The translations under genes and the position numbers were made by a program. Below are positions 5,517-61,826 of a stretch of 64,000 nucleotides of DNA, piece by piece (positions within the stretch are counted from its first letter, which is position 1; each line of letters opens with the position of its first letter). Origin of the DNA: Amphirosellinia nigrospora. Its lineage: Eukaryota; Ascomycota; Sordariomycetes; Xylariales; Xylariaceae. The stretch spans positions 930,001 through 994,000 of the forward strand of contig SCHM01000004.1 of the NCBI GenBank assembly GCA_004123355.1. The letters run 5' to 3'. Under the pieces are notes generated by a model. That model ran no database searches. It had not been told where the DNA came from and saw only the letters and a list, made by a program, of their open reading frames with translations.

Positions 5517-8500
5517 ATGCCGCAAACACGCAGGCCACGCCGCCATCACGGGTCAAGGCGGAAGAGGACCCTGAGCATCTCCATAGGCCGCCGAGCCAGG
5601 CTGGTGATTACGATGTAGACGACATGGACACTGATGACGGTGAAGGTGACATGAAGAATGGAAATTCATCCAACTCGGAAGGCCCGGTAAAGAAGCGGAG
5701 GCGGAGCCGGAAAGGGCTTGACAAGAAATTTGAGTGTCCCACAGAAGGTTGCGGTAAAAGCTACTCGAGAGCAGAACATCTGTAAGTGCTGTGCCAGAGC
5801 TGATATGAGCTTTGAGAAGTGTAAGCATTGCTGATGAGTCGACAGTCATCGTCACCAGCTGAATCACACTCCTAAGCAGATCTATAGATGCAACTTTCCA
5901 GATTGCAATCGCGAATTTGTCCGACTCGACCTGTGCAACCGCCATAGGGATCGTCACACTGCAAAGGGATCCGCGTTGAGCCGGAAAGATTCTCTGATTA
6001 GTCAAACCTCTCCGGTCGACAACGTAAGATCTCCGTACCCTACCCTGCTTCGACGACCACATCCCCCAAGCACACCAAGCTAGGAGCGTCGCGTTGAGAA
6101 CAGAACACGCAGCTCACTCTCAATACCAGTCACCGAAGGACGGTGTTGGTATTGGCACACCATACACCCCCATAGCCAGCACATCCCCGGCCATCTTTCC
6201 TCATTCTGGGTCTTCTAATGTTCCTGATGCATATGTGCATTCTGAGCAGGGAACGAGCTACAATGCAAGACTTCCTCAACAATCCCGAGTGGTCATCACC
6301 GACTACATGCACATCCGGGTGCCAACGTTTATGGTGTCATGTCACCCGTGTCAAACCACCCCGGTAGTTACCACTTACAGCCTACTCACACTCCACAGTC
6401 CGTTCCCACGATGCCATTTGTCGTGCCGAATAACTTCCCTGCCTTTTCGCTTCCTCCTTCAGACTTCAATTCTGCGACTGGTCCCAATGCGGGTTCCGGA
6501 TCTACCAATCAATATGCGCCCAACCTCGAGCGAGTATGGCGAACAGTCGCACGGCCAGACATCGACCAATTTAATGCTACTAGATCAAATGACGGCACAA
6601 GCTACAATGCCTGTATTCGCCGCGGACGGCATTTTGAATAAATCGCCGTATATATCGCTTCCCGAAGATTTTGTGGCTTACCTGTTCAACACTACATCCC
6701 TAACACTTCACCGTCGGCTGTGGCCATATCATACAACAAAATCTATATTCAAAGTGAGTGTTAATTCTAGGATTATTAATGAATGTCATGCTAATCCAAG
6801 CAAGTTATGGAGATTATCAACATCCGTACAACGTGCACTACCCCGGAGCTGAGGCCGCTCCTCTTGGCTGCTTTCCACCTGGCCAGGTTATGGCAGTTAC
6901 GAACCTTCTTCATCCCAATCTACCAGAATCTATTCTATCCGACGAGAAAAGTCAAGAACTATTCGATTTAATTAGGGAGAGATTTCACGAGGATAATTAC
7001 ACTCCCGTTGATCGACAGAAAGAGAGTCTCTTGGAGGGAGACAGAAATGATGATGAGCACATGCTGAGTCGCAAGATGATGCAAGTATACATAGGCTCTT
7101 ACTGGCTGCATTTAGTGACCAGGTACCAATACTCCACAAGCCGACCTTCTCGCCAGATAGGACACCAAACCTTCTCCTAATAGCCGTCATGGCCATTGGC
7201 GCCGCTTGTCTTGACCAGAGCTATGGAGCTAAGATTACTCAAGCTGCGGCGAACCTCTCCAACTTTTTGGCATGGAGTTTGAGGTGGGAAACTTTCAGGA
7301 TCCGACCTGTCAGCCACCTGCGAAATTATGGACTTTCCAGACCTTATTACTACTCGAACTATATGAAAGATGTACTCTACGCGGAAGCTTCACGAGCGAG
7401 CTCATATACATCATGCGACCACAATAACCCTCATGCGAAGAGGCCGGTCATTAATAGGAAATCGCCCTTGGACTCGCCCCCCAGTGCACGAGAGGATCGG
7501 TCAACTAGTGCCGGATCTCGGCAATCTTCCACATCCGGCCCGGCGCACACACCAGATGAATGGTGGAATACTTGGATAACCAATGAGGCACTCGGCGTGC
7601 CGCTTTTATAGCATTTTTGATTGACTCGATTCATGCTACTATGTTCGGACACTCAACGGTCATGGTAGCACACGAGATGCGCCTTCCTTTACCATGTGAT
7701 GATCAACTCTGGAAAGCTACGAGCGGCGCTGAGGTGGGCCGGATCGAGTCGAACCATATGTCTCGAGGATTGAAGCCTATGCTATTCCTGGAAGGGCTGA
7801 AGCGTACTCTGGCCGGGCAAAATGTACACACCAACCCGTTTGGGCGACAGATCCTTATGGCTGGGCTGTTGAGCGTCAGTTGGCACATGAATCAACGCGA
7901 TCTGCAAATAAGCTCTCTAGGTACGAACATGTCGCAGGCCCTGGGTGGTCGAGATAAATGGCGAGTACTTTGATGAGAGCATTCGATGCCTGGCGAAACG
8001 AATTCGACAAATCACTTCAGCACTCGAATCTATCATACGATCCTTACAGCTCCGACAAACGAACTGACTCTAATGTAGTTTTTGAAAGCCGAACTGTGTT
8101 GCATCATCTGGCCCACATGGCGATGCATGTAGACATTGTGGACTGCCAGATATTTGCTCGAGCGAAGCGCCTCTTGGGACGAGCTATTGGGCCACAGGAC
8201 TTGAGCAGCGCACAGAGAAGGATGAAGGACCACTGGCGCCGTCAGCTAGGGCTCGCGATGCACGTTTTACGCTGCTAAATTTCTGTGCTCGGTGCTACTC
8301 GACGATAAACAGTATTGTGCTAGGGAAGACGTGCTTCTCAATAGGCCTTGGGTTCTTATTTTGCAGCCTTGGTTATTTGGTGTTATGGGTTCGCCATCGC
8401 CGGACGTTGCCAGACAGGATTTACCGAGCAGTCATGATGAGAAGTATAACCAAATGCGCGAGTATCTGCAGAGGCTCGGCTCGATTCAAACACCCGACGA

Positions 8501-8627
8501 TCTAAAGATGATGAGGGATGTCAACCGTAGTACTGCTCTTTTGACAGTCCTGAAGGATGCTTTTGCGTCGACCCGCTGGGAATTACTCCATGAAGCGCCA
8601 CATTGTTGGACAATTGCATCCAACTAA
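5517..8627 (+). CDS. C2H2 zinc-finger plus fungal-specific regulatory domain transcription factor (frame-disrupted)
   Basis: The protein is a sequence-specific regulator with two tandem C2H2 fingers followed by a fungal_trans (PF04082-type) middle region. After an acidic, Asp/Glu-rich leader and a basic VKKRRRSRKG patch, finger 1 (CPTEGC, then HRHQLNH) is split by a 5' GT-AG intron at about 5780-5845. Finger 2 (CNFPDC ... HRDRH) follows. Both have C-x4-C-x12-H-x3-H spacing. A Ser/Pro-rich linker leads to conserved stretches PILHKPTFSPDRTPN, LLLIAVMAIGAACLD, LHERAHIHHATTITLMRRG and FGHSTVMVAHEMRLPLPCD, typical of fungal C2H2/fungal_trans proteins. These stretches lie in different frames. I count roughly ten single-base frame changes, several at clearly short T runs (7111-7113, 7969-7971, 8265-8268). 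The ATG at 5517 is the best start only if one base is missing near 5549. Target genes are unknown. The gene is either full of assembly indels or, less likely, a young pseudogene. Confidence 0.8.
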
Positions 8628-9986: not shown

Positions 9987-12066
9987 ATGCTTCTCTTAAC
10001 AGATCTCCCGCCCGAGATCGTCCATCATATTTTGGCATATGTTGATCCACAGGACCTAGCTTGGATCCCCCGCACCTGCAAGAGCCTCTACCACGCCGTC
10101 AGCGCCAACAACCCGCTGTTCAAGCAAGTCTATCTCAACCACCTGGATGCGCCATCCCAAGGCCCCATCGACTGGGAACAGTCATTGAAGCGTCTTGTTC
10201 GGCTCCAGGCTTTGTGTAAACGCGAGGAAGTCGATGACAAGGTACGTCCCTTTTCTTTTTTTACTATGGCGAGATCTATCTATCTCTCTATCGGATGAGC
10301 TTGAAGGTTAGCTCGTTTGTGGTCGAGCTATGCTTCGCGCACAATGAAGACGCCGACGCCGATGCCGATTTCGGCACCGGCCATGATCCTTGCTCGATTA
10401 GAACTAAGACTTAGACTAAGACTAAGACCAAGACACTGACAAACTTACGCTTCATAGAAGGATGAGCTCGACTTCGTGCACCAGGCCGTATCCGAGCTCC
10501 TAAAGAATGCTTCCAATAAAGGCGCACGGCGGAACTTAACGGCCCAGATTCCCCAGTCTCGCAACGCCGATGTTCTAATCGACATCTTCAGCTCCGAGTC
10601 GAATCAGTCGGCTTTTCTGTGCCGCTCTTTCATCTACGAACGTGCTCGTGCTGAATTTCACTCCCAGGACATCATATTGGCATGGCCCCCTAAGCCAGAG
10701 CATCAGAAGAGTGCTCACCTGCACTGTCTCTATGGCGTGCCGCGGTTGTTCGCCTACCCGTCCGCCCGTCGACAGACCCGCCATAACTTGATGCACCCCT
10801 TCGCTTGCTCCAAGGTCTACGATCTCAGACAATACACCGACAAGAACAAATGGGGCCCTTTCCTGGACGACGGTAGCATGCGTGTTGACTGGGAAAAGGT
10901 CGAAGCCATCATGATTGTGCTTGTCGCGAACATGAATAACCTCGGCGTTTCAAGCATCCAGATGTGCGAAACCTTCTGCTCTGTTCCCTTCGCCGGCACA
11001 TGGCCGAATAGCTGGAAGACACCTCCTATCCACTTGACGCCGCCGCGCGAGCCCGACCCCTGGACCATCTCGATCCCTACGGCGTCGCCGGTGTCTGGCT
11101 GCGTGTCGTCTGCTTCTTGGACTACACCGATTTCTTCGCCTACAATTTCGGCGCCCGCCACTCCGGGCTGCCGCCACATGTCCGCGGCCCGCCATCAACG
11201 CTGGCCAGGCCACGCGTTTTTCTCATGCGTCTTATCACGAGCGTCGAAAAGCCCGGCCCGGAAGACGGACAAGAACTTCCCGTCGTGCATTTCAGAGGCG
11301 TTTTAGATCGTTGGATCAGAGCTTCGACGAGAAGCCGATCAGATCTCAGGTACAGTCCTTGTGAGGTGTGAATGGAACTTCATTTCTGTGTCATCTTGCT
11401 ACTAGCAAGAGGACACGACACTACATGAGCGAGAATTTAATGCTAACGAAGAGGAATTTATTATAGGTACCGTACGCTTGACGCCCGAGGGCGAAGTTCG
11501 CTGGACAACATTCTCCATTTTCGGTGGCGTGGAACGCTGGCGTAGCAGAGTGTGCAGGTCGGCGGTATCAGAGCGCCAAAGGCGTGCTGGGTCATTGGTT
11601 CGACAAGTGTTGATTTTTGCTATTTCTTATGTTTTCTACTCTCTTACTTATTACTCTGCTTATCTGGTCTTTCTGGTATTTGATGTATGATTTTCATTTC
11701 TCTATGAGCCGATGACATTTTACACGGCAACTCTACCATTGGTATCCACAGGGACGATCCGCGTGGACCAGCCGGACCCACGGCATTCTGGAAGGTTTCA
11801 GACAGGAACCAGCCCAATTACGGCATGGAAAATGAGAAGAGCTTGCCGGCGATTACGAGTCCTACGAGGACGGAGACGGAGAAGACCCTAGCGATGAAGA
11901 TGAAGACGAAGTGATGTCTGTCGACGAATCTATACCGGAGCGTAGGTCGGTTGGGTTTAGATCTGCTTTCGGGGGCGATGACGATGATGACGACGATGAC
12001 GATGGTGATCTTGTCTTCCAAAACCCCCCTTTTAGTGTAGGTCATTGTATACTTCGTGTCGTGTGA
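9987..12066 (+). CDS. F-box domain protein with acidic C-terminal tail
   Basis: Probable substrate-recognition subunit of an SCF-type ubiquitin ligase. The N-terminus opens with an F-box (LPPEIVHHILAYVDPQDL, then CKSLYHAV), the part that would bind Skp1. Exon 1 ends at 10241. A 216-nt intron (10242-10457) precedes the long second exon, which carries the substrate-side region shared by a family of fungal F-box proteins (GVAGVWLRVVCFLDYTDF, GPEDGQELPVVHF, EGEVRWTTFSIFGG). Further introns lie near 11350-11466 and 11610-11750. The protein ends in a very acidic tail with an uninterrupted Asp run (about 11980-12005) before TGA at 12064. The reading frame is broken at several places, for example at a C run at 11058-11061 and near 11180, 11300 and 11530. 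The conserved blocks continue after each break. No substrate can be inferred. Confidence 0.8.
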
Positions 12067-13172: not shown

Positions 13173-14697
13173 TTAGGGGTTCAAAAAAGACGTATTAACA
13201 ACTGAATGCAAGTCTCGTCTTAAATTCCTCGAACGCTCATCGACACGGATACCGTTCCAGGTCTCGCGACCTTCATCATCATGACCAAGCGTCGGCATAC
13301 CGACCTGTTCGATAGCGAAGCTGGCTGCCACACTACCCCAGGCCGCAGCTTCCTCGATGTTCTTTCCTCTTGCCAACGCGACAGCGAGTCCGCCAAGAAC
13401 GTGTTGCCACCGCCTGTGGGATCAACGACTTTGCCTCTTTTCTTCTTTTCGTCTTCTATTCGTTCCTCTGTCTCCTCTTCGTCTTGTGGGGCTCCATTAC
13501 TATCCCTCGTAGGAATCGGAATGAAAAGCGGGTATCCAACGCTCGACACCAGGGTCTACCTCTATCTCCTCACGGGTAACTGAGCCTTCGGCATCCTGTA
13601 GAAGGCCTGCGAATAGTGCTTCCATATCCGTGTCGTGCCTGAGCCCGCCGTGGAGTAGCGCGGACGGCTTCTTGCCTTTTGTCTTGGACTTGTGTTTATG
13701 TGTGCGTTTGCGGCCACCGTTCCGCGCGAGGTAGCACCTTTCTCGCCAGCTCGTACGACGATGCTGAAAGATTGCAGGGCATCGAACTAAGAGCTGCTCG
13801 CAAGACCGCTCGATGGCTCGTGTGCTAATCTCCCCTGTCTCTGGATCTAGTCCATCATCGCCCATGAAGCCTGCCAGCTCAGCATGGTTGGGGCTTAGGA
13901 TATCAATAAGTGGCAGTACGTTTGTGCAGTTCAGTAGCTCGTCGGGCGTGCAGAGGTCTGGCACGGGTTCCCATATGAAGATGGGGCGTGGAGATGATTG
14001 CCCGTTGTATCTTCATCACCGTTTTCCTTCTTACTTTGCCCGGCGTCGCCGCCATCACGGACCTCTTCCGGGCCATGAAGGACAGAGGCCGGTAAGTCAG
14101 CGCGTTTATCTTTGATTTCTAGTACGAGCTCGCGACACCGTTTAGGAGAGCAAATCAGATGGAAGGTACGCGATGCAAGTAACTCAGGCGTCAGATCCTC
14201 GGCTGTGAGCCGTTTCTTGGGCGTCATGTACCGGAATGCCCGGTTCTGATACTCGTCATAACCGTTCCAGCCGGGTTGTTAGGCGTTCGGGTGTCTCGCG
14301 CAGCAGTACCGACGTTCCCACGACGTAATCACATCCTCCAGGCCCGGAGGGAAGTCAGAACCCTTATCGACAATCCAGCCCACGGATCCGGAGCGTGGAG
14401 GTGGCGACAATAGCCGTGCACCGAGGGCCGAGTATGTCCCGGCACCGCCTAGAGCGTCTTTTACTGGCGGTGTGGGAGGCAAATACTCAATATCATCTTT
14501 GATTGGAGCAGGTTAGCGTAACATGAATTTCTTAAATAGCAACTGGATTGGCTCAATATGTAAGTAATCTGGATTGGTTCGGTAATTTCTTGATAGGGTG
14601 GTGAATAGAATAGAGGCTGGGAGTGACAAGAAGAGGAAGCGTGAGTGAGATGGCTATTCGTGTAGTAGTGGAAATCAAATGTGTCAGGGTTGGTCAT
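13173..14697 (-). CDS. Mak32-like pfkB-family protein (frame-disrupted)
   Basis: This belongs to the ribokinase/pfkB fold and resembles the fungal Mak32 group, whose yeast member is needed for stability of dsRNA killer virus. Its biochemical activity is not established. Seen on the minus strand: the N-terminal glycine motif VKDALGGAGTYSALGARL, the middle IDILSPNHAELAGF block, and the C-terminal signature VDPTGGGNTF. In true kinases that signature is DPTGAGD with a catalytic Asp. Here Asn stands at that position, as I recall for Mak32 relatives, so kinase activity is doubtful. The ATG at 14697 (MTNPDTFDF) looks right, but the joining of the first exon to DDIEYLPPTPP is unresolved. Frame changes occur at short runs near 14315, 14270, 13950 and 13393 (TTGGCGG where TTGGGCGG restores the frame). 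The protein ends ...TSFLNP. Confidence 0.72.
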
Positions 14698-16284: not shown

Positions 16285-18117
16285 ATGGCGCAGAATAATA
16301 TGTATAATCTTGTCACCTTGATAAAACGGTAAGGCGACCACCCTCATCCCCGACCCAGCCCGACCTGGCCCAAGCCTGACCCAATTATTGCCAGGCTAGA
16401 AGCGGCCACGACGCGGTTGGAAGACATCGCATCGTCCACCATCGAGCTCCCGCACGCCGTTCCCGCCCTGTCACAGCCCATCACCTCGCCCCCGACCAGT
16501 CTGACGGCGCCACCCCTTTAGCCTCGGCCTCATCGTCTGCCTCCCCCGCCGTCTCGACTCCAGTTCCCCAAGAAGCCCTGCCTGAGCCCGTCGAGGAATT
16601 CGACAAGTTCATCAGCAATTCCGTCGAGAAGTATGTCGAGGCGAGTGACAAGATAGGCGGCTTGGTTGCCGAGCAGGCCGCCCAGGTCTACGATGGCTTC
16701 AAGCAGCAGCGCCGTTTCTTGCTCATCTCTACCAAGGCAAAAAAACCAGACATCGCCATTACCGCCGAGATGTCTGTCTACCAGGAGTTGCTTAAGCCCA
16801 TCAACGAGGCTCTCGTAGCCGTCGGCAACCTCAAGGAGGCAATCACCCGTCAATCCCCCATCTTCTCGCACCTGAGCGCCGTAGGCGATGGAATCATGGT
16901 GCTAGCCTGGGTCACCGTAGACAACAAACCGTCCAAGCACGTAGAGGAGTCGTTTGGTTCTGCGCAATTCTTCGGGAACCGGGTTCTGAGCGAGAATAAG
17001 GACAAGTATGGAAGATGACCAATCATGCGGGCGACAGGAGAAATATACTAATAATCTGTATTAGGAACCCCGAGCACGTCCAATGGGTCCAATCATTGTA
17101 CCAGATATTCCGCGACCTCACGGAGTTCGTCAAACAGTACTACCCGAATGGTATCCCTTGGAATCCTAAAGGCGAATCAGCTGCCCAAGTCGCCAAGACA
17201 ATATCATCATCACCATCATCAACGACAGCAGCCGCTGCACCACCACCCCACCTCCACCGGCACCACCAGTCGCCGCCGGTGCGCCACCGCCTCCACCGCC
17301 GCCCGGCCCGCCACCGGTCCTGCAAGTCAAAGAGGAAGCTGCCGCGCCAAAGTCAGATACGGGCTTGGGTGCAGTATTTAGCGACATCAACAAGGGCAGT
17401 GATGTGACGAAGGGGCTGCGAAAGGTGGACAAGTCGCAAATGACACACAAGAACCCATCACTGAGGGCAGGGTCGACAGTGTCTGACCAAGAGACCCCTG
17501 CTCGGGGAGGAGCGCCCCTGGCAAGAAACCAAAGCCCGAAAGCATGCGGGTGAAGAAGCCCCCTAGGAAGGAGCTTGATGGCAACAAATGGACGATAGTG
17601 AGAATCCCCCTACCCTCTAAGTGCGGCGAGCTGGGAAAGACTGCAAAGCTAACCTTGAAACCTTGAATCACAGGAAAACTACGAAAAACACGACGAGCCC
17701 ATCGAAATCGAGGTGTCCATGTCCCAAGCGGTACTGATTAGCAAGTGTAGCCATACAACCATTATTCTCAAAGGCAAGGCCAATGCGGTGACGATTGAGA
17801 ATTCGCAGCGCTTGTCGCTCGTCATCGATAGCCTCGTCTCCACCGTCGACGTAGTCAAGTCGTCCAACTTCGCCCTGCAGGTCCTCGGCCACCTGCCCAC
17901 CGTCTTATTGGACCAGTTGGATGGCGCACAGATCTACCTAAGCAAGGAGAGTACCTCGACCCGAATCTTCACGAGCAAGTCTTCCAGCGTCAATGTCAAC
18001 GTGCTGGCCAGCGATGATGAAGACTACGTGGAGATCCCGCTCCCGTACCAGATTTGCTCTCAGTTCGACGAGAAGAAGGGCGAGATGGTCAATGAGATCG
18101 TAGAACATGCTGGTTAA
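16285..18117 (+). CDS. CAP1: Adenylyl cyclase-associated protein (CAP/Srv2)
   Basis: CAP/Srv2 binds actin monomers, recycles cofilin-ADP-actin and couples adenylyl cyclase to Ras signalling in the cortex. The start codon at 16285 opens a short exon (MAQNNMYNLVTLIKR), then a GT-AG intron to about 16394. The N-terminal CAP helical domain follows, with RLEAATTRLEDIA, EEFDKFISNSVEKYVEASD and MSVYQELLKPINEA. A second intron at about 17007-17064 contains a CTAATAATC branch site. Next come a polyproline segment (about 17240-17320), then EPIEIEVSM and the C-terminal beta-helix CARP domain ending DEKKGEMVNEIVEHAG. A third intron separates KELDGNKWTI from ENYEKHDEPI. The frame slips at three runs that look one base short: C run 16513-16516, C run 17246-17249, and the G run near 17510. 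All domains of the family are otherwise present at normal length. Confidence 0.93.
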
Positions 18118-18836: not shown

Positions 18837-20832
18837 TTATAGTTTGGCCTTGGGGGCTTCCAGTGTGGGCAGGAGTAGCTCGCGGAGATCACCCGCGGCC
18901 TCGTTGAGGTAGTAGCTCATCTTCTGGCTGCCGAGGCCCTTGGAGACGATGTTGAAGTTGAGGCTGCGGAGGGAGAATTAATTAGCCATCATATGTCTTG
19001 AAGGGAGGGAGAGAGACTTGTTGTAGGAATTAATTCCGTTACGGTATGATGATTAACTTACCTGTTCTCGTTGATCATGTACGCGATACCGAAGCCGGCA
19101 TCGATGACCTGGCTCCAGCCGTAGCCGTTGAAGAACTCGGAGCTCAGCTGGCTCGTGGACAGGAACCACGAAGAGCTGTAGCCGAAGGCCGGGTCCTTGT
19201 AGATGGCGGGGACCTCCTCGCCGGGCTCGAGCAGCTTCTTGAGGCCGAAGAGGTGGCGGTCCACGCCCTTGCCGTCTGACGCGGCGCCGATGTACTCGCC
19301 ATGCGCGGCAATGGCCTTGCGGAAGAGGCCCACGCGGTCTTCGTCCGAGACGTTCGGGTCCGCCATGGAGTTGCAGAAGGCTACGCTGTCGTCTGATACT
19401 GAGCGGCACGTCTCCGTGCGACCTAGCTGGAACCGCCGTGTCGCGGCCGATTCGTATGTGGGTCTGTTCTTACCATACATCTTGTAGTACGCCAGCTGGA
19501 TGATTATCTGCACATATGCGTCGGGTGAGCACTTGAATTTCTTGATCAGGCCCTTGCCGTAGCCCTGGTACGCTTGGACCGCCAACTCATGCTTGCCAAT
19601 GACAGTGGCGAAATCCTTGATGGCGCGGTCGATCTCAGTCTGCACCTCAGGAGTGATCTCGAAGTTCACGGCCACGGGATCGGGTAGGTTTGACCGTGCG
19701 GACGGGTTGCTGAAGTCCAGTTTGTTGTTAAATATGGCATCGTTGACGTAGTCGTTTAGACGATGTGTCGGTGTTCCATCCATCATGCTGTGCTCACCCA
19801 TGAAACCTGACGTGCCGTTGTCGTTCACGATGAATTGTAGTGGCTTGTCGTACCAACGGTTTTGGCCATCACCGTGCCAGTACTGGCGCGCCCGTTCCTC
19901 GAGAGTCACGGGGGACGCATCATCCAAGCACACGATGAACGAGGCAGACTCGATGGCTTCGAGTACTTCTGCGTTCTTGGGAGAGGCGTCTAGTAGAACC
20001 TTGCGAGCGTCTGTCCAGACATCCCTGTTTTCGCTTGTAAGCGCACCGACGGAGGGTACCCGCTGGGCAAGCTCATAGACCTTGGTAAATTGCGCCTCAA
20101 GCTCCGTTGTGTTTAGCTGCTGCCCATCGGCCTCGTGCGTGATCTTGAAGAACTGGTTCTTGCGGATGGCAATTATGTGTTTGTGGTCCTTGGGGTCGAA
20201 TTTCACAGGGTGGTCAGCGGGGCGGGCTGCGACTCTGCTCGCATTGAACATCCACTTGTAGCTGTCCATGCAGATGGGCAACTTCTTCATGTATTCGGGC
20301 TCGAGCGTGCCGCTGTCAACCTGCTTCTTGAACTCTAACGCGGCAGTCGTGAGGGCGGCGGCACGCTTGGCGGGAAGCCGCCGCGACGGTCATCGCGATG
20401 TGAGTAGAAGTAGCTGACGTAGGGGACGACGGGATCGCGGTAGGACAGATACGCAGCATCGTTCCACCACTCATAGATCCAGTTCTTGGTCTTGGGGTCC
20501 TCCCGCTTTGCGATCAGCTTCTTCTGTAGCTTCTCGCCGACGCCGCCAGGCTTAATGAACTCGTCAACCGCCTTCTTGCTCGCCGCAAATTCGACAGGGC
20601 TCAGCAGGGGATGTATGCTCTTGACGTAGCGCGCCGCGGTCTCTTCGAGGGTCGGGACGGGAAGACGGGGTAGGGACTCCTGAAACCGAAGCATAGGTCC
20701 TTTTGACTTGTCTTCGACATAGCCTGCGTTTTCTGGTAAGCGATTGGGGCCTCAGAGAGATAGACAGCCGGTGGTTGTTAGCGACTAACCTTGGGGCAGG
20801 GAGCTGTTGCTCCGTCGCGCAGGAGGTGCCAT
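18837..20832 (-). CDS. Carnitine O-acetyltransferase, peroxisomal (PTS1 AKL)
   Basis: Catalyses reversible transfer of acetyl groups between CoA and carnitine, letting acetyl units leave peroxisomes and enter mitochondria. It is needed for growth on acetate and fatty acids (acuJ/CAT2 family). Choline/carnitine acyltransferase features are present: YLSYRDPVVPYVSYFY near the N-terminus, the catalytic His in GEHSMMDGTPTHRLND, and the LSTSQ motif near the C-terminus. The last exon ends SYYLNEAAGDLRELLLPTL...AKL, and AKL is a peroxisomal targeting signal. The chosen start (20830-20832) opens a short first exon, MAPPARRSNSSLPQ, spliced to the exon with MLRFQESLPRLPVPTLEETA. An in-frame ATG there (20694) could give a second, shorter product, as is known for yeast CAT2. 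A 3' intron lies at about 18978-19057. One frame change near 20371 (HRDDRRGGFP|AKRAAAL) looks like a missing base. Confidence 0.93.
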
Positions 20833-22733: not shown

Positions 22734-25430
22734 ATGGCGTACTCTCTTTCGACGCATTATGCAGGCCAGGGGCTTCTCGACAGCTTTAACTTTTTCACGG
22801 GCGAAGAACCGAGTAACGGATTCGTCGAGTAAGTGGCTATAGTACAATCCATACCGGCAGTCGACTGAACTTGTGTGTGTGTGTGTCTTAGTTATAAGAG
22901 CAGAGAAGATGCCGTTGATGGCAATCTTGTGTCCGTTGATGAGTTCAACCGAGTAAAACTTGGGGTTGACTCGATCAACACATATTCGACCAGTGACAAA
23001 GGCCGACCAAGTGTCAGGCTCACCAGCAACGACGCCTTCACTCACGGTCTCTTCATCGCCGACTTTGCCCATATGCCTAGTTCGACTTGTGGGACTTGGC
23101 CAGCATGTAATTAAACACCTTCTACCTCAAGCTTCGCTTCAAACTAATTACTTGCAAGTCTGGGCTTTCAACAATGAGGAGGATGGCAAACTCTGGCCTA
23201 TGGGAGGAGAGATCGACATCATTGAGGGGGCCAATACAGCAGAGAAGAATTTGTTCTCTGCTCATACGTGAGTTTTCGAAGACAACTCAACATACAATTC
23301 TAAGCAAGAATAGCACGCCCGGATGCCAGGCCCCGATAACTGGCTTTACCGGAGCACAGGGGAGAGCTGATTGCTCACTGAGTGTAAGTGCTTAATTATC
23401 ACGTCTTATATGCGATGTTATCTAATGCAATCCCCATAGCCCGGGAATGTTGGCTGCAATTACGTACCCGTATCCCATAGCGCCACGTACGGCGACGCTT
23501 TCAACGCTGAAGGAGGCGGCGTGTATGCTTTAGAGTGGGACTCTCAAGACCTCAAGATATGGCATTTTCCTCGAACAGCCATTCCGGACGATATCAGTCG
23601 CGCACCCCTGAGTACACCAGATCCAAGTACTTGGGGCCCACCACAAGCTCTCTTTGGAGGGCCAGGTTGTGAAGCAGATTCTCACTTTTTCAACATGAGT
23701 CTCGTCATCAACACTGTAAGAAAGACTAAAAGGTATCACCGAACCCCAGCATGCTTACTGACACGAAATGTGATAGAACTTTTGCGGTGCATACGCGGGT
23801 AACAACTGGGGCGTCACCGACAAATGTAACGAACTTGCACCGACCTGCGAAGAATACGTGGCTGGAAACCCGAGCAGCTTTATTAATGCCTTCTGGCAAG
23901 TTAACTATATTGACGTCTACAAGAAGTCAGGTCCAGGGAGCAAAACCTTGGCACCTCCCTTCTCGAACAGTACCTTCACGAACAACACTACCTCCTCGGG
24001 CAGCAGTATCCCCTCAAATAGCACTACCCCTCGAACACTACCCTCTCGAACAACATCGTCTCTTCAAACAGTACTACTTTCTTGAAGAATGGTACTACCC
24101 CCAGAGCCCTCCGCTCCCTGCTACCACGAGCCCCTCATTCTTTGGCAACGGCACTGCATTAATAACCAGAACACGGACCATCACGATATCGACCGTGAGG
24201 AAAGTGACCTCAACAGCCGAACCAACCCCACGGGCAATGTGCCTGCTAGTTCCATTGCGATGAACGGGTGGACACTACTGGGTTGTTTTGAGTCTCCCGA
24301 TAGCCACAAGGCATTCTCCCAGGTCCCCTCGTCCTCCACGATGGACAACAAGGCCTGTATGGCCAGCTGCGCCGGACACAGATACGCTGGCATCTCAGGC
24401 GAGTGCGTTACCCCGAGTTCCCGTCCAGACGCTACAAGACACTAACACATGACCTCATAGAACCTGCTACTGCGCCGATACTCTCACGGACGCGACCGCT
24501 GTCGCCAACGAGAAGTGCAGCAGCAGCAGAAATAGTAGCAACGCGCCGTCGACGAAGATGGCCCCTTTCTCGAGGGCGAGCATGGTGCAGACGAACTCGA
24601 CGAAGTTCCACAACGCCGCGATATCAGATACCTCGAAGCCCAACAACAACAACAACAACAACATGCGGCTCAACCCCCTCCTCTCGCGCGCCGCCGACGA
24701 CCCCTCCGACGACATCCTCCTCACGGTCTACGGACACGTCAGCGACGAGGTCCCGCCAGGCTCCCCGGGCATGGGCGGCGGAGGAGGCCCACGCATCAGC
24801 GACAGCGACAAGGATGATCTGTCTGGCTCGCCCAGCAGCAGGATGGGAGGAGGAGGAAATCCCCCCTCTCAGGGTGACGTAAGGATACAAGCACCGACAG
24901 CGACAGCGACGACGGTGACGACGGTGACGAGCGCTGTCACGGTAACTTTCACGACGATATGTCCCACGGACGCGGCGAGGCTCGTCACGCAGGAATACAT
25001 CACCACGCTGACGACGCAGCAGCAGCAGCCATGCCATCTCTGCACCATCACCACCCCACCCCCCGTGCCGATGGCCACCTGCACCGAGACCTGCCGCGCC
25101 TGCGGCCCGCACGGCGAGAGCACCGTCACGCTCACGGTTCCCGAGGCCGTCGTGGCCGGGACGGGAGGGGGTCATGTCGTAGCCTACGCTGTCCAGACGG
25201 TCGTTCCCGTTCTTGCGTTGAATCCGCCAGCATCATCGTCATCATCGTCGTCATCATCATTGACAACCGCCAGGCATGCTACTCCGACCCTATCTATCGC
25301 CAATACACCCGTCGTAGCTGCAGGTGCTTCTACTACCACGGTAGGCGGGAAGACGAGGGGTTTTCTGAAGACACTTGGGTATGGATTCGGTCTCTGGTTT
25401 GTCGTCTTTTGGATTGGTATTGTTTTATGA
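22734..25430 (+). CDS. GH16 beta-glucanase/transglycosylase-like protein fused to a WSC domain, membrane-anchored
   Basis: Likely acts outside the cell on beta-1,3(4)-glucan or a related wall polymer. The GH16 fold is spread over six exons with introns at 22829-22891, 23107-23158, 23268-23313, 23394-23439 and 23716-23776. The catalytic signature GGEIDIIEGANT has the two glutamates of the E-x-D-x-x-E motif. CGTWPAFWAFNN, DCSLSPGNVGCNY and NNWGVTDKCNELAPTCEEYV are further family blocks. A Ser/Thr/Asn-rich linker (about 23940-24240) leads to a WSC domain (GWTLLGCFESPDS ... CMASCAGHRYAGISGE|TCYCAD) split by an intron at 24403-24460. WSC domains bind glycans in wall stress sensors. The tail has a poly-Asn run, a Ser/Thr-rich region and a final hydrophobic segment (FGLWFVVFWIGIVL) suiting a membrane or GPI anchor. 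The ATG at 22734 gives no clear signal peptide, so an upstream exon is likely missing. Linker frame slips fall at C runs 24027-24030, 24098-24102 and 24226-24229. Confidence 0.88.
24647..24664 (+). repeat. AAC trinucleotide repeat encoding poly-Asn
   Basis: A run of AAC codons inside the GH16-WSC gene encodes a stretch of Asn residues directly after the WSC domain. Similar low-complexity coding repeats (TCATCG/TCATCA, poly-Ser) occur near 25229-25262 in the same gene. Such runs vary in length between strains. Confidence 0.7.
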
Positions 25431-25845: not shown

Positions 25846-28178
25846 CTAATTCTTCGGTGGCTTAGCCTGGGAGATGAGTTTTCGGCCGATTGCGATCGTC
25901 TCATCCATCCCCTGTTGGCGTAGCCAAAACCTGCGGGATATGTAAGCAGTGTTTAATGGATTATAACTTCGCGAACTTACATTTGCTCTGGAGTGCCACC
26001 GCTACCTGTAGACAGTTTCCTGGCTTCTTCTTCAAGCGCAGCAAGCGTAATCTTCTCTCCAGTCTTGGGAGTGCGAGGGACAGCCGCTTCCATAGCACCG
26101 GCCCCGAGTGTTTCCTCTAGAAGCTGCTTTCGCATGGCGAACCTCTCTTTCCTCTCTTTCTGAAGGCCTGGGCTGTCCATTTGTCTTAGGGCATATCTGA
26201 CAATGAACTGAGTGCCTAGATATAAATGTTCCGCCAGGAGGATAGTCACCAAAAGTCCAACAACGTGCACGTTTGATGGATCGCCACCAGGGCCCTCGCT
26301 TTCACCGCTAAAGAGGAACACGACAGCTGAACTAACTAGACTTCCCGCCCAAGACAGGAATCCTAAAGCGTTCAACCAAGGACCAATGGAATCAGATCTC
26401 CAAGGAATTGGACGTTGACTACTCATCGCAATCTTCATCGCATCAGATCGTAGCTCGATCCAATTATTGGCCAAGAATGCCAAAGGTGTTAGAGGCCAGA
26501 TCGATGAGAATAGAGATAAGTAGCCAAACTGGACTACCATTTCTCGATAGTCGACGGCAACATCGTATACTCCTAGCTTGGCTTCGTCTCGGGCCCTCTG
26601 TAAGAACTTACGTTCTTCAGGTACGTCCTGAGCAGTTCCACTGTCTTGGCTTGATGCCCGCTTCGCCTGGGCCCTCTCAACCTTTTTGAACACAACTTGC
26701 TTTACGTAAGGTACCACGAATTCAAGGGCGACGTTGACGATTTGGGCGGTGACAGCGAAGTAAACCATCTGAGTCTTAAGTCGATTAGGGTTGACGCGGA
26801 ACTCCTGAGTGGTTATCGGCTTATCCTTATAGAACTTCTGGGATGTAGTTGTGAAGATATGAAGATATGGCAGCATCAAATTCCCGAACGGCATATACAC
26901 AAAGGCGGATAGGAACAAGGGCGTATAGGAGGTGATGAAGTTGATGATGAAAATCTTCCTGATAAGACTAGCTTGATGAGCTGTATTGATTGTTAGCTAG
27001 GCGTTTCTAAAGCGTCTAGGGTTCCCTACCATCGTTTGTTTGATAATTCTCACGCTCTGTCAGTATTTCAGCAAATTTCGTTAGTATAGTCGATAAGACT
27101 GGTAGGATGCTGCTCAGGATGATAGTAGGCGTGAAAGTCTTCCATATGTTAGCTCCTATTTTCCTTATGATGGATTAATTACGCACCAGGTATGATTTGA
27201 ACGGCCCATTATATACCTGGGTAAGGAAAATCTCGACGCCAAAACAGAACACGTATAGTGCCCTAACACCATGACACAAGCGAGTGCGAATGGAATCTGG
27301 AGCAGTTGTGTCTGTAGTCTTTTCGTAGGTGGGTAGTGTTTAACCAGTTCGCCAGTCATCGGATCTGGGGCCTCATGATCCCACTGGAATTGGGTTCGGG
27401 GATGTTGGATGCGCGAGACATTACGGACACCCCACTGCACAGCCAGGTCGACCTCCTTCTTTTTCCACCACTCGAAGAAAACAACGGACCAGAGCGAGTT
27501 GGCGAAGGCATAGAGCCACGAATAACGTCCAAGGATGAGCCACGCGGCAACTCCAAATGCCGCAGGAACAAATTGAAAGGCGAAATATGACTGCAGGAAG
27601 GCGAAGTAGAAAGCGACTTTCTCACCAAACTTGTTGCGTATACGGTCGAGGTCCCCTTCGTCTAAGAAGTATTTTGTGCCCCATGTCTTAATCCAAGTGC
27701 TATTGAAAGCATGATCGTGGAGAGGAAAGATTGAAGTGACCTCTTTCCATTGCCCAACATTGGGTGTGATGCCAGCTCCGCCGTCGTTTTTAGGCTTCGT
27801 GATGAGTAGATACACCAAGCGTAGTCGTTCAGCCTCAGTGACAGGCTCATTTTCGAAGGCCTTAGTGATGTCTTTTTCTGGGGCAGAAGGCCGCACGCCG
27901 TACAGCCAGTCTTGAAGCCGCTCTCGGTATATCTGAGAGGCAAGGTACTGGTTTGACGCTACTTTGACGAACACCAGCACGGAAGAACTGTCGCCATGCC
28001 GCACCTCTGAGGCAAGGCCAACTTTCGTAAGAACTTCAATCAGCCGGGTGAATCCGGCTTCGGCCTCGGCCTTGTCAGAAGGTATGTTATAACTGATTAC
28101 ATAGTCGACATTCATGTTTGACTTGAGCTCTGCGAGGTCGGCACCATCAGATGCGGAGTATTGGTGAGGAGTACTCAT
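25846..28178 (-). CDS. TMEM16/anoctamin-family membrane protein (lipid scramblase or Ist2-like tether)
   Basis: Fungal TMEM16 proteins are calcium-activated phospholipid scramblases and/or ER-plasma membrane tethers (yeast Ist2, Aspergillus and Nectria TMEM16). Seen: a cytosolic N-terminus (MSTPHQYSASDGADL, NVDYVISYNI) and KTWGTKYFLDEGDLDRIRNKFGEKVAFYFAFL leading into membrane segments. Then come the family's EVDLAVQWGVRNVSRIQ linker, FGVEIFLTQVYNGPFKSYL, SAFVYMPFGNLMLPYL, YREMVVQFGYLSLFSSIWPL, LANNWIELRSDAMK and HLYLGTQFIVRYAL. Length is about 730 residues over four exons. Introns lie near 27150-27190, 26985-27030 and 25925-25977. The small last exon encodes QQGMDETIAIGRKLISQ and ends AKPPKN. 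I chose the ATG at 28176-28178 because an upstream in-frame ATG has no homology-like sequence. One frame slip at 27261-27263 (GGG where GGGG restores VLGALYVFCFGVEIF) is probably a sequence error. Confidence 0.9.
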
Positions 28179-39129: not shown

Positions 39130-42100
39130 GTTTATTGCACCTTAAAAAAAAAGCCTCTCTATCGCCCCTATTACTATTATTACTGTTACTAGTTAGCTAA
39201 CGAAAATATAGGTTTTTATATAAATATTAACCGCTAAAGCATCTAACTTATAAAGTTTTAAAAATAAACACTACGGAAATATATATTATTTTTAGTTATT
39301 AGCTATATATTATTGGATTAATATATACTACTGCTATAAAACTACTAAAAATAAAAAAATAAAAAGTTTAAACTTTTAAAAAAAAAACTTTTTATATAAA
39401 AATATTACTAAAATAAAAAACAAAAATAAAAAAATATTATATAAAACCTTTAAAATAAAACTAACTTTATTTTTTTACGTATTTTTAATAATAAAGCTTA
39501 CTATAGCAAAAATTATTAACTATATATTAAATATATTAATTTTTATAAACTATAGGTTAATTATAAATTAAAAAATATTATTATAATTATTAATATTTTT
39601 AATTTTTATTTAAAAACTTTAAATTATATTATATATTTTTTTAATTTATTTTTAAAATATTATATTTATAAACGTTATTAATATTAAACTTTTTTTAAAT
39701 AATAAATATTTTAAATTATTTTAATTATTTTTTAAAAAAAACATAAATAATAATTTTACTTTATTTTTAATAGTTATATATTTAAATAACGTAATTAATA
39801 TTTAATTATATGCGCTTTTTTTTATTATAAAAGCTAGCATTACTACGTAAAATTAAAAACTAGTATAAATATATAATATAGCAATAAAAGCAAACTAAAT
39901 TGCCGCTTTAATATAAAACTTTGCTAAAATATTAAATAAAATTTAAATATTTAAAAATATAACTATTTAATATTAAAATAGCTGAAAATTAACGATTTAA
40001 TTAAGTTTAATAATAAAAAAAAAAACTAAAACTAACGTTAAATTTAATTTTACGCTTAAAAAGCAGCATATAAGCTAAAACTATATATAAAAAAAAAAAA
40101 ATACTTTATAAACTATAATTAAATCTTATATATATATTAAAATTTAAAAGCTTAATATAACTAATAATCGAACTATATTTTATATAAATTTATAAAAAAC
40201 TTAAAAATAATATTAATTAAATATAATATATAATTAAAAACCTATTTAAAAGCCTAAAAAAACTTATAATATAATTAATAAAATCGCTTTATTAATAAAA
40301 AAATAAACAAACTATTTTAAAAAAACTAATTTTTTAATATATTTTTGTTAATTTTATACGGCTAGTAAAAAACTTTCGTATAAATAATTTCGCAAAAATT
40401 TTAAAACTAAAAAAAAAAATAAAAAAAAACTATAAATATATTTATAAGTATATATTTAAAACTAGTTATAAATAATTTTAATAAGTAAATAGCTTTTTTT
40501 TAATTATTAAAAAAATATTTCGGATTTTAAACATTATAAAAATTATTTCGGAAAAAGTTATACTAGCTTTAGCTAAGCAATAAAACTATTACTTAATATT
40601 TTAAGCGTATTTTAGTAGTTTTTTAATATATTGCTTTTTTAATTATTTAATCTATAAATTACAAACTAACTTTTTATAAAAAACAAATATATAGCGATAA
40701 TAATATAATAGTTATTAATTATAAAAAAATAATAATAAATTATAAAAAAGTTATATTTATATTATAAATAGCTAAAATATATAAAAATAAATACGTAAAA
40801 AAAAAGAATATATATAATTAAAAGTATTAAAAACTAATATATTAAAACTTAATATAAAGTTATTAGTTTTTAAAACTAGTTTTAATATTATTAATTATAA
40901 TTTAGCCCTTTTTTATAAACTAGCTTTTCTTTATAAATAACTTTTACTAAGCAAAGAATATACTTACGTAAAAATACTAACTTTTTATATATAAACTATA
41001 ATAAATTACTTACGAAAAAAATAACGCGCTTTAAAAATTAAACAATTTTATTAATATAAAAAACAATAATAATTATTTAAAAACGTAAGCTTTAGCTTAA
41101 ACCTTAGCTAAAGCTATATATATAAGGTTATTTATTTAAGTTCGGCATAAATAACTAAATATTTATTTTTTTTAAAATAATAATATCTTAAAATAATAAA
41201 ACAGTAAAAATAACTGCGCTACTAAACTCAAAATATATAATAACTACTTTTTTAAACGAACAAAAACATATAAAATAAATTATAATATTTTAATATTAAA
41301 TATACTAAAAAAATTATGTTTTATAAACAAAAATATATTAATAATATTATATAATCTATAAAAATTATATTTATTATTAAAAATATAAAAAACATATTAT
41401 TATATTATTAATTATATTAAAAAAAATATACTTATAATAATTAAACACTTTTAGCTTTAAAAATATAACCTTTATATAAACTAAGCTAATAATATCCTTA
41501 TATTTACGTTAAAAATATATATACGTAAGTATACGCGATTTATACTTTTAGCCTAAAAAAATAGCAAACAAGGATATTATTTTTTTAGTGCGCAAAAACA
41601 ATATAATACTAATCTAAAATATATTTAATAAAAAAAAAAACATATATATATTATTAGCTATAAGTTTTATTATATTTTATAAATAATAAAATATAACTAT
41701 ATTTTGCTTTATTATATAAAACTTCTAATATTTTAATTTTTTAGCGCTTAAAATATTAAACATATTTAACTTAAATATATATATTATTTTAAATATAAAA
41801 TAATAAAAAAAAATATAAACAAAAGCTAAACTTAAAATATTATAGCTTTATTAACAATATATATAATAAGTATTTTTTTAATAAAATAGCGTAAAAAATA
41901 TTAATAAATATATAAAAAATAAACTATTAATTATTTTAGAAAATATTAAAGTAAAATTATTTTATAAATATTATAATTTAATTAAAACGTTTTTACTATT
42001 TAAAGCTATAAAACTATTTTTATATTATATTTATAACTATAAAATTAACGTATTAAAAAAAAAAACCTACTTAGTTATAAAAATAAACCGCTATTTTAGC

Positions 42101-44039
42101 AAAAGTTTAAAGTTATTAAAAAGTTTTTAAACGAAAATTTAAAAAAAAAATTTATTAAACTTTTTAAATTGTTAATATTAGCGCCTTTTTTATTTGCTAA
42201 AAAACCTAGCAAAAACATATAAATTTATATAAACTATAAAAGCTTAAACAATATTATAGTTAAAAACTATTATTTATTATTATTAATTTATAAAACGTTA
42301 AACATATTATTTAGCTTAAAAATCTTTATAAAAATAAACATTATTATAACGTTTAATAAAATCCGCGTAGCTAAAAAAAATAAATAGAAAACTGTTTTTA
42401 TTATAAAATTCGGTTTATATAAAATATTAGTTATTTTGTTTAGCTTATATAATATTTTAAGCATATTTTAACGTTATATTAACGATATTTTATATAAGTT
42501 TTTTTAAAAATTCGTATTAGTTTATTTAAATAATATACTTATATATTCGAAAACTAAAAAAAAGCATATAAAACATATAAAAAAGTACTAATAGCTTTAA
42601 AAGAATCGGGACTATAAATTAATATTAATAAATACGAATTTTATATTACCCGTATTAAATATTTTAGCTTTGTAATTTTTACTAAAAAAATTTTTATAGA
42701 TAAAACTAAAATAAAAATACTAAAATTATAAAAAATATTAATTAATTTTAGTATTAAAAACTTTTAAAAGTTTTTAAGCTTTATTAATTATTATAAAAAG
42801 TTTATTAAAAGCTTTTTAAAAATTGCTAGGCTTTTTATTAACTTTTTTAGTAAAAACTCTAAATAAAAATAAAGAAAAAAACATATTTTTATATTTTAAA
42901 TATTTAAAAACGCTTTTATAACCGTACTAATCTTATAATACTTCGATCTATAAAAGAAAACTATAATAAAAACTAACGTATTAAACTAAGCTACAAAAAA
43001 ATACTATTATAATTTAATAAAGAAAAACATTCCGCTTTATAGCTTATTTTTCCGTAAAACATATAATAGCTAAATCTAATTATAAAATCTATAATAAAAA
43101 ATTACTAAATATTATTAAAATATTTAAAAAATAAAAGCTTAAACTTTAAAATATTAAAAACCCGATCTAAATATTTATAAACTATAAAAACTTTTAATAT
43201 TTTATAACTATTAAAACTTTAAGCTAAAAACAAACTAAATAATCTAAATTCTTTAGCTAATTTAATTTTTAGATTATTTATAAGCTAAAATTAAAAGCTA
43301 TACGGCTAAATATATTAAATTAATAACTTAATGATCTTTTTATAAAAAAAAATATAGTAAACGATAAAATAACTTTAAAAATATAGCAATTATTCTTAAA
43401 TAAAAAATTAATAAAAATAGTATTATTTAATGCTATTTTAAAAAATATATATTTTATTATAATATATAATTATATTAATAAATTAATCGATAGTACTTAT
43501 AACTTTTTTTTAATAACGCACGTTATTACGAACTATTTTTTTATAAAATTATTATAAATAAAACTTTTAAAAAATATATAAACGTTTTATTTATAAAATG
43601 CTAAATTTTTAATAGCAAAATATATTTTAATAAACGCCTATTTTTATTTAAAATCGATTATTTTAAAATATAAGCTTTAATAAAATCGTACGATATATCC
43701 CCGGTTAAATATTAAAGCGAAATAAAAACAGCTAAAATTATAATATAGATATATTAATAGCCAAACATTTATAAAAATGCTATTATTTATATAAAAACGT
43801 ATTATTTATATAAAAAACGAAAATATTTAAAAAACTAGCAGTTAAACTATTATATAGTTTTTTAATACTTTACAAAATAGTTTAATATATTAATAGATTA
43901 TATTGTAAAACTTCTTTTATATATATAGTATAAGCAAAAATATACTAATATATTAATAATAATAAATTAACTAACTAAAATATGCTATTTTATTTTATAT
44001 AAGTTATTAAATATAAAAAAGCTTATTAACGTTTTTATA

Positions 44040-44644
44040 GGCAATTGATACGGGGGCATGAAGAATTGATACGGGGCATGACCTTAGGGGGGCATGACTT
44101 TTATAACCCTTGTATTAGCTATTTAAAAAATTCCGAAAAATATAGACAAAATACTCGAATTTTTGTCATTTCCTGCTCTATATAATGGTATAGTTTAGGG
44201 TTTTATAGCCCTAAGTGTGGCTGAGCTATACTTTACTCTATATTAAAATTTTGCTAAAAGTATAGTTTTTTGCAGTTTAGCCACAATTTAAGCCACTACT
44301 TAAAAGATATAAAAACACACATATTTTTGTTATTTTCCGGGCTATATAACATTACATAGCCCTAAGCTCTAACCACAAAAGTGGCTGAGATATAATATAT
44401 TATGCAACATGATGTAATTAACCGATTTTTTGCTTCAAGTTATATATAATAGGTAATATCTCAGCCACACTTAGGGCTAGGGCTACAGACTTTATACTAT
44501 AAAAAAGAGCAAAAGATAACAAAAATTAGGTGTTTTAACGTTAATTTTATGATTTTTTATGTGGCTGATATGTGGCTAAGTAAAAGTCATGCCCCCTAAG
44601 GTCATGCCCCCGTATCAATTCTTCATGCCCCCGTATCAATTGCC
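44040..44644. mobile_element. Foldback/MITE-like DNA element with about 60-bp terminal inverted repeats
   Basis: A 605-bp insertion of normal composition inside the AT-rich fossil. The left end GGCAATTGATACGGGGGCAT and the right end ATGCCCCCGTATCAATTGCC form inverted arms of about 60 bp. Each arm contains two copies of an AATTGATACGGGG(G)CATGA unit. The arms differ only in the length of G runs. Flanks carry a perfect 8-bp duplication TTTTTATA (44032-44039 and 44645-44652), the length made by hAT-type transposases. Further inside, TAGCCCTAAGTGTGGCTGAG (from about 44199) is mirrored by CTCAGCCACACTTAGGGCTA (near 44460), with a related copy in the middle, so nearly the whole element can fold. 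No coding frame is present, so it is non-autonomous. Confidence 0.88.
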
Positions 44645-45794
44645 TTTTTATATTATAAGTTTATTTATTTTACGGCGTTTTTAATATTATTATTTTAAAT
44701 AAAAAAACTTAGTTTATTTTAAAGTTTTAAAAATAATTTTTAAAGTAATTTGGCTTAATATTAAAACCGTTTATAGCATACTACCCGCAAACGAACAAGC
44801 AAACAAAAGTATTTAATTAAGCTTTTAAACAATATTTATAAATATATATATTAAAAATTAAAACAACTAAATAAATTAGCTATTACTAGTTAAATTTGTT
44901 ATTAATAATATAAAATTATTATTAACAAAAATATTTTTTTTCGCAAACTATAACTATTATTTAAAAATCGGTATAAAATTACTTATACTTTAAAACTTTA
45001 ATTTATTATTATATAATATTAAAAAGTTTAATAAAGCAAATAAAATCGCTAAAACTATAAATTTAATATTAAAAGACTTATAAATTAATATAAGTATAGC
45101 TTAAAAAAATTAGCAATTATACGTTAATAAATATAAATTTAATTTATTTATATATTAACTAAACTAATAAATATAATTAAACATAAAATATATAAAACTA
45201 AAAAAAGCAAAAAAACTAAAGAATAAATAAATAAGCCCCTACTAAATTATAAAATATTATAAAGAAACTTATACTTTAAAATTATAGCACTTATTATTAA
45301 ACGTATTCTTTATATTTTATTATTTTTAACTTTAACCGGCTACTATAAAGGACTACTAAGTTAAAACAAAACAAATAAAAAAGCAAAAATAAAAAATAAA
45401 AGTTTAATTTTAATAAAAAAAATAATAAAAGCACTAAAAAAAATAGTTATATAAAAGAGTCCTAAATAATAAACTATAATAAAGCAGTTTATAATACTTA
45501 ATAAATTAATAATATTATAAACCTACCTAGCAACCTATTGCTAACTTAAAAAAATGTAATTACTACTTATAGAAATTTTATTCTACGAACTTTAACAAAC
45601 TTAGCCTACTTTAATAGTATAGCAAAAAATAAGCTATATAATAATAAGTTGCTTATTAAGCTAATAACGAAAAATACTCGGAAATAGACCCTTTTAGCAA
45701 TTTTAATTAAAATACTATATATAAAACTTTAAATAACGAATAAAGCTTATAAAATAGCTTTATTTAGGACGAAAAAGCATAAGAAAAGGAATAT

Positions 45795-45939: not shown

Positions 45940-45944
45940 CAGGA

Positions 45945-55748: not shown

Positions 55749-55785
55749 GCGCGCGCGCACACACACACACACACACACGCGCGCG
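55749..55785. repeat. Symmetric (GC)n(AC)n(GC)n microsatellite
   Basis: An alternating purine-pyrimidine tract of 37 bases: GC repeats, then about ten AC repeats, then CGCGCG. Such tracts can adopt Z-DNA and vary in length. It lies about 190 bases upstream of the candidate gene at 55972. Confidence 0.85.
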
Positions 55786-55971
55786 AGCCTCAATATGCGT
55801 ACCGTTCACTTATCTCTATACCTTGGTATCCGACTCATCTTTCTCGCTTGACCATGCCTCGAGCTTTCAGTGTTTGAGTATTACAAACAACGATTATAAC
55901 CCTCTCTCGCAAGCTTCCGCTACTATCTTAATACCTGTTGCTGCCATCGCCTAAACCCTCGTGGGAGGAAG

Positions 55972-56496: not shown

Positions 56497-56756
56497 AATC
56501 CTTACCTAGTCTGTTCTTGTTTCTCCCACCCGTTCACACGCCCCCAATACGCCCCCCGTCCCCCCGTCTCCATAGGGCTGGTCGCTGGGTTCATAGCCAC
56601 CCACTCGCATTTCACTCAAGATTATGGTGCACGCTCGCATCCCAGCCATGCTTGCCATCTTTTAAGACGAGTTTTGCTGGCGAGCAATAGTCTGATCGAG
56701 TAGGTGGGCGAACAATAGCACCCGAGTGAGCCAGTGCTCGCACTGTATTTGCATCT

Positions 56757-60381: not shown

Positions 60382-61826
60382 ATGGCACATGTCCCTCGTA
60401 CTGCTACATTACCACACCCGGGTTACAATCCCAGAGACGTTTACGGGGATCGCGGCCGTCGTTTACAAGAACGACGCCTCACATATCTAGATCGTCATCC
60501 TACGGGAGCGGCATACGACGCCATCCGCTATCTCCAACACCCAGTCCCAACATTGGGTTCACCAGTCCTGTAAGGATGGAGGGGGTCCACCAGTATGGCA
60601 AGAACTCGGCAGGGAATACTCCTCCGCTCTTACCCTTAGTTTCCCACGGCCAGCTAGTATACAGTGATGTGGGGACGCCGGGCTCGGGTACGCACGTCAA
60701 AGTCGACATCCAGGGTGTGATTGACAAGGGATTCTTTTGGGCAGATGGAGACTGGACATGTTATCGCCGCAATTATTTCTCTTGTGTGTGCTCCTATAGC
60801 TTGAATCCTCATCTCCCCAATGCGACGATGCAGTATTTTCCCACAGGGTCGACAACCCCTTACCAGGTATTCGGATTTGCGATGAGCATCTCAGCCGTTG
60901 TGTCCGACAGCGACTCCCAGAGTATCGACTTGGTACAGCACACACCTAAGAGAGATAAGGGCCCAACCGCGAAGCCGGAGAAAGTGAGGTTGCTACCCAA
61001 GCCTCCTCAGCAGGCGTCACACTCGATAGGACTTTATCAGGACCATCATGGTATGCCTACCGGCTCTAGGGCAATTTATGAGGGTGGATATAGCCAAAGT
61101 GGACAGGGACCATATGCAACGGAGCATACGTTCGAAAGAATTCAATTTAAACAGGCCACGGCAAATAACGGCAAGCGCAGAGCCGCACAACAATACTACC
61201 ACTTACTCGTAGAGCTTTACGTTGACGTCGGCACACAGAACCCAGGTGGGCAGTATGTTAAGGTTGCAGAACGAAAATCGGCAAAGATGATTGTTCGTGG
61301 TCGTTCCCCTGGGCACTACCAAAATGATCGACGGGGTAGCACAAGCAGTGGGCCTGGAGGGTCAAGCGGCATGGGCAGTTATTCGAGCTCTCAGGTGATC
61401 GGCGGGGACTACGGGCCGGGTTCTTCTAATCTCCTCCCCAGTACGTACTCGGGCATACGAGGCACGAACGGGGCACTACGGAGCAACCCGCCATCCTGAG
61501 ATGGGCTTGGAGCCTATGATCCCGGCGGAGGAGGGCAAGGCAATCGACACAGCCAAGGAATACCAGTACTATCCTGCGCCAATATATGAGAATATCGAGG
61601 CACGCCACGGGATTGAGATGTTCTCCCATCGCCATGAACCAGACAGTATGCTGAACCCGGCGACTTCTAACGTTGACTCGATTTCGAAAGTCAACATGAG
61701 TATGAACAGCACCTACCAAGCATCTACCAGGCTGGGTCTGCATACTACTCTAGGCAATGCGCCCGGTTTGACGGGAGGACATCGTCAAACGGTTATTATC
61801 CCACACCACTTCCTCAATCTGGGTGA
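60382..61826 (+). CDS. NDT80/PhoG-domain transcription factor, VIB-1/XprG-like
   Basis: Ndt80-fold DNA-binding regulator. Neurospora VIB-1 controls heterokaryon incompatibility, protease and cellulase genes, and Aspergillus XprG controls proteases and starvation response. The N-terminal part has HISRSSSYGSGIRRHPLSPT and NIGFTSPVRMEG. The NDT80 domain follows: GVIDKGFFWADGDWTCYRRN, YFSCVCSYSLNP, FAMSISAVVSDSDSQSIDLV, HTPKRDKGPTAKPEKVRLLP, FERIQFKQATANNGKRRAAQ and QYYHLLVELYVDVG, ending in KSAKMIVRGRSPGHY. A Ser/Gly-rich stretch leads to MIPAEEGKAIDTAKEYQYYP and a C-terminus ending TSSNGYYPTPLPQSG (TGA at 61824). Frame changes are needed near 60470, in the 61440-61495 segment, and at a short T run (61682-61684). 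The start at 60382 is a best guess. An upstream first exon is possible. Confidence 0.88.

Follow-up and report, generated by a model that had tools for sequence, protein, structure and literature searches.

Why do so many conserved genes in a single stretch of a fungal genome appear to be broken by small changes of reading frame: have they decayed, or is the sequence itself short? We consider this question for 64,000 nucleotides from Amphirosellinia nigrospora (positions 930001-994000 of a contig labelled C6 here, in an assembly of 48,114,038 bases and 11 contigs), hereafter the window, whose gene content is fungal (Fungal_trans, NDT80_PhoG, and an Anoctamin protein near nhTMEM16); the nhTMEM16 match is indicative of an ascomycete. 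An initial annotation had proposed that conserved genes are frameshifted here at 13 mononucleotide runs, each one base short, and that sequencing or assembly error rather than gene decay is responsible. As a whole its observation is partly confirmed and its interpretation is supported: frame changes in chaperone genes elsewhere in the genome, run lengths in dispersed 5S rRNA genes and run lengths in a non-coding repeat all point to error. The 13 sites themselves are no independent sample, because they were picked by the initial annotation, and their frames were judged by eye from three-frame translations, partly against known family sequence.

We consider it very probable (about 96%) that these frame changes are length errors of the assembly and not mutations, in a consensus that was most probably derived from long reads, of nanopore type, with inadequate short-read polishing. 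All three parts of this reading (error rather than mutation, the sequencing technology, the lack of polishing) we infer from two observations: length differences between copies of repeated non-coding sequences that depend on run length and are biased towards loss, and shortfalls of one or two bases in chaperone genes at positions with no room for an intron. Such a consensus would drop one base, sometimes two, far more often as a mononucleotide run lengthens; its errors strike genes and non-coding sequence throughout the 48.1-Mb genome, and each one in coding DNA breaks a reading frame.

Comparison of predicted proteins with their families fixes the position of a missing base no more closely than a few codons, and 67% of points in the surveyed parts of the window have a run of 3 or more within 10 nt. 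The statement that a frame change falls at a run therefore comes largely for free, and such proximity is on its own weak evidence. We therefore compared copies of the 5S rRNA gene and of a repeat element, in which a lost base can be placed, and it is the dependence on run length in these two sets that provides strong evidence beyond chance.

The genome contains 33 matches to RF00001, 30 of which were aligned; counting was limited to the 17 carrying no more than 5 substitutions, the other 13, in which gaps are present too, being left out. Among the 17 near-identical copies, the run of five C is one base short in 6/17, runs of four in 2/31, runs of three in 1/50 and runs of two in 0/247, while single bases are missing in 2/978 cases, in one copy with a single 2-nt loss. 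The difference between runs of 4-5 and runs of 1-3 is highly significant (Fisher p=2.5e-10), and no insertions were seen among the 17 counted copies. The 5S rRNA genes comprise more than one sequence type, 17 copies lying near one consensus and 13 being more divergent.

The second set is built on a 607-bp terminal-inverted-repeat element at 44039-44645 of the window, with arms of 65 nt each (44039-44103 and 44581-44645); the genome carries at least 84 complete or partial matches to the element. As had been noted initially, its two arms differ solely in the length of their G runs, and at two of these only (5, 4, 6 against 5, 5, 5). From 30 fetched loci we aligned 21 copies. Across these the three G runs of the arms reach at most 5, 5 and 6 bases, substitutions accounting for some of the shorter runs, and both differences in the window copy therefore lie one base short of the commonest family length, with the caveat that the mode is narrow for the third G run of the right arm (6 in 8 copies, 5 in 7). 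For the 13 closest copies we counted clean runs, setting aside those that were substituted or whose flanks had changed. Runs of at least 5 bases are short in 22/168 cases and runs of 1-4 bases in 16/4000 (Fisher p=7e-22), and in total 38 clean runs are shorter and 1 is longer. Since this element is non-coding, the effect is not confined to genes.

The element ends in GGCAATTGATAC and resembles a hAT-type miniature element. Direct repeats of 8 bp were seen by eye at the borders of 15/16 printed copies; for some of them a G-to-A or C-to-T substitution, or the loss of a terminal base of the element, had to be assumed. Very AT-rich DNA surrounds many of the fetched copies, and substitutions among the repeat copies are mostly G>A and C>T (231/394 relative to the majority letter), as repeat-induced point mutation would leave.

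Beyond the window, we searched the genome with the Cpn60_TCP1, tRNA-synt_1 and HSP70 profiles and compared adjacent pieces in profile order. The searches name Pfam families only; the finer designations CCT, HSP60 and synthetase type are presumed. The sample covers 21 gene entries, 18 for chaperones and 3 for synthetases, in which neighbouring Pfam pieces meet at 28 junctions, tabulated from piece coordinates entered by hand; 2/20 and 8/14 rows were left out in two of the searches as weak or non-adjacent in the profile, and 25/25 were used in the third. At fifteen of the 28 the frame changes and no intron could fit, and the length there relative to the family profile is -1 in nine, -2 in three, and -4, -31 and +4 in one each. 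The other 13 junctions carry 38-152 extra nt, roughly the size of an intron, in all three phases, and were not scored as breaks; no junction falls between +4 and +38 nt. In this way 10/18 chaperone entries, from a set spread over contigs C1, C4, C5, C6, C7 and C8, are broken by a frame change without intron room, and the overall rate is 15 breaks per 31.3 kb of pieces, or ~0.5 per kb. A gene model based on codon usage, which allowed for frameshifts and introns, recovered most of the CCT breaks.

Taken together, the loss-biased shortening of 5S and repeat runs with increasing run length and the breaks in chaperone genes argue against both gene decay and introns, and are what unpolished long-read errors would be expected to produce. 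Of the alternatives, real decay, in which these genes would be pseudogenes with accumulated indels, fares best and is nevertheless very unlikely. In its favour is a transcription-factor gene in the window with about nine frame changes, far above the 15 in 31.3 kb of chaperone and synthetase pieces, so that additional decay of this one gene is possible. However, the same defect is found in 10 of the 18 chaperone entries and in 5S rRNA genes, and is thus not restricted to dispensable genes. A cell needs its chaperone genes, and a fungus could hardly survive with this many of its CCT, HSP60 and HSP70 genes broken. Moreover, in most of the CCT and HSP60 pieces that were read, the stops stand at the ends, where the match overruns a frame change or enters an intron, and not within the coding piece.

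That the frame changes are ordinary introns misread as frameshifts can be given hardly any credence as a general explanation, even though real introns do exist, as in the gene for a cyclase-associated protein (CAP, below), and 13 of the 28 junctions have the extra bases that an intron would need. The remaining 15 junctions leave no space for one, the two classes of junction are separated by an empty interval of lengths, and in three window genes pieces in two different frames abut one another. We think it just as improbable that the fungus is a true mutator lineage, for example through loss of mismatch repair, in which runs contract and the products are rescued by transcriptional or translational slippage. 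Run-length dependence and loss bias would by themselves fit such a lineage, but three MutS-family domains are open and close to full length in the assembly, which does not imply working repair. Runs of 3-5 are also short for known slippage rescue, and in its absence broken chaperone genes should be fatal. Least credible of all is that the short runs are real in a lineage with genome-wide run contraction that makes working proteins by slippage or programmed frameshifting at many genes.

Several observations nevertheless sit uneasily with assembly error as we describe it, although none of them favours a biological cause. In the repeat alignment, when all single-base gaps are taken, including those with changed flanks, 49 deletions are accompanied by 11 insertions, and 16 of the 38 short clean runs have a length of only 1-4, 12 of these being single bases. 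None of the 3 synthetase entries is broken. Of the nine chaperone junction spans that could be read, five contain no run longer than 3, and one CCT-family gene (C1:6115480) is an exception to the placement of stops described above, with two pieces that carry internal stops. No truncation of long runs was visible in the overall length distribution, the counts of runs of at least 6 over the window's first 36 kb lying within ~1 standard deviation of a first-order Markov model; this comparison is a weak one, as the model was fitted to the same, already affected, sequence. Finally, the errors reported for another fungus go more often in the opposite direction, as discussed below.

Returning to the window, the open coding frame shifts, by eye, at all 13 sites that had been listed. 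The accompanying description of these sites as runs one base short stood for the most part: the sequence is one base short at 12 of the 13, and 12 are runs, of length 3 (4 sites), 4 (7 sites) or 5 (1 site). The site at 8265 is net two bases short, interpreted here as two losses separated by a few bases, and at 13393 there is no more than a doublet. As to the claim that conserved genes are broken, introns were excluded where Pfam or PDB pieces in two frames abut, and homology in two frames without intron room was found in the Fungal_trans, carnitine acyltransferase and TMEM16 genes; the breaks in the remaining genes, namely the F-box gene, the 3' part of Glo3, the 3' part of the NDT80 gene, the CAP linker and the WSC gene, rest on open frames read by eye and not on homology.

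The transcription-factor gene (~7.1-8.4 kb, plus strand) illustrates both kinds of support. A run of three T at 7111-7113 marks a frame change, seen in the three-frame reading, at the start of the Fungal_trans domain, where the PF04082 match in the later frame begins. A second change, inside the domain at 7296-7299, had not been listed initially: PF04082 positions 8-80 end at 7299 and positions 80-245 start at 7296 in another frame. Pfam support in this gene is limited to this change and the match start at 7111. The profile aligns 7296-7919 as a single stretch, placing 208 residues on 166 positions, by which further changes inside it are neither shown nor excluded. Read by eye, frame changes also fall at three T at 7969-7971 and at four T at 8265-8268, the latter being the site of the two-base shortfall. 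By eye, ~nine frame changes were counted across 7100-8450, as against ~0.5 per kb for the pieces of chaperone and synthetase genes. The simplest cause of this excess would be locally low read depth; true decay of the gene may have come on top of errors. Counts from the codon-usage model were set aside because the model proved too weak for the low-bias genes of the window; in the transcription-factor gene, under the one setting with full output, no coding segment was called.

Two minus-strand genes are broken within homologous sequence. In the carnitine acyltransferase gene the change lies at 20360-20395, where PF00755 positions 1-91 end at 20389 and positions 99-557 start at 20377 in another frame, with a match to human carnitine acetyltransferase downstream of the frame change. 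In the TMEM16 lipid-scramblase gene the change falls at 27261-27263, a run of three G on the gene strand; the Anoctamin profile matches in two frames, and in one frame the alignment to nhTMEM16 runs out at about the start (27264) of the Anoctamin match in the other frame, and it resumes downstream. The frames of both genes were read by eye.

For the other genes a domain assignment accompanies frames judged by eye. In the F-box gene, four C at 11057-11060 (plus strand) stand at the frame change, with the F-box domain upstream. In the PfkB/Mak32-like gene (minus strand) the change is at the doublet 13393-13394; the downstream piece alone is matched by the profile (PF00294 positions 262-294 from 13397, in the later frame), and the upstream frame was read by eye. 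The CAP gene (plus strand) has four C at a frame change in its linker (16513-16516), CAP_N-CM and CAP_N lying in different frames from 16509 to 16599, and four more C at a change in its proline-rich stretch (17246-17249, by eye). Some frame changes in the listed genes are ordinary introns: a gap inside CAP_N at 17006-17064 is a 59-nt GT-AG intron and no error, as the profile continues from position 129 to 130 across it and splice sites are present, and an intron in the Glo3 gene at ~36369-36296 is called by the codon-usage model. In the latter, a Glo3-type ArfGAP gene on the minus strand, the frame change is at 35733-35736 (four G on the plus strand), downstream of the ArfGap domain. The gene initially described as GH16-WSC gave no GH16 match at E<=1 and only a WSC match, with E=0.0003 and under the curated cut-off; its three changes, all plus-strand and by eye, are at four C at 24027-24030, upstream of the WSC-like domain, at five C at 24098-24102 and at four C at 24226-24229. 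Downstream of the NDT80/PhoG domain, which is whole (1-180/180 in one frame), three T at 61682-61684 (plus strand) mark a change seen by eye. Of the three genes that had been named as intact, PEX12 has its domain whole in one frame, and the metallophosphoesterase (1-159/191) and DUF4360 (4-108/178) are each matched in a single frame.

Length errors of this sort are a known kind of artefact. Nanopore-only assemblies of the fungus Drechmeria coniospora, a filamentous ascomycete as here, likewise contain conserved genes disrupted by indels in runs: most of the errors seemed to lie in homopolymers and altered reading frames, a given gene could have very different error rates from one assembly to the next, and short reads permit correction (PMC7500977). 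By contrast with our case, in which runs are mostly too short and the technology is deduced, polished nanopore runs there were more often too long, and the direction of the error therefore appears to depend on the pipeline (PMC7500977). Homopolymer indels of this kind are described as decreasing with coverage (PMC9453082). Closer in direction are the gene-fragmenting errors that Kastor finds in bacterial long-read assemblies, which are for the most part false deletions and are associated with homopolymers of 2-8 bases, chiefly after 4-5; unlike ours, these are bacterial and were checked against read data (PMC12007338). Nanopore assemblies of Rosellinia necatrix, of a similar size to this genome (~48-50 Mb), include nine drafts with BUSCO scores of 68.2-82.5%, for which the main text gives no cause and does not use the word homopolymer; the largest contig there is at most 7.1 Mb, compared to 13.8 Mb here (PMC10796067).

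The significance of these findings is that of a quality warning only. With 10 of 18 chaperone entries carrying an apparently false frame change, gene models, pseudogene counts and selection tests based on this assembly would mislead. Comparison of 5S and repeat copies within an assembly can, in turn, detect run-length error without recourse to reads. The 4-kb block 40001-44000 of the window has a G+C content of 13%, between flanks of 34-40%.

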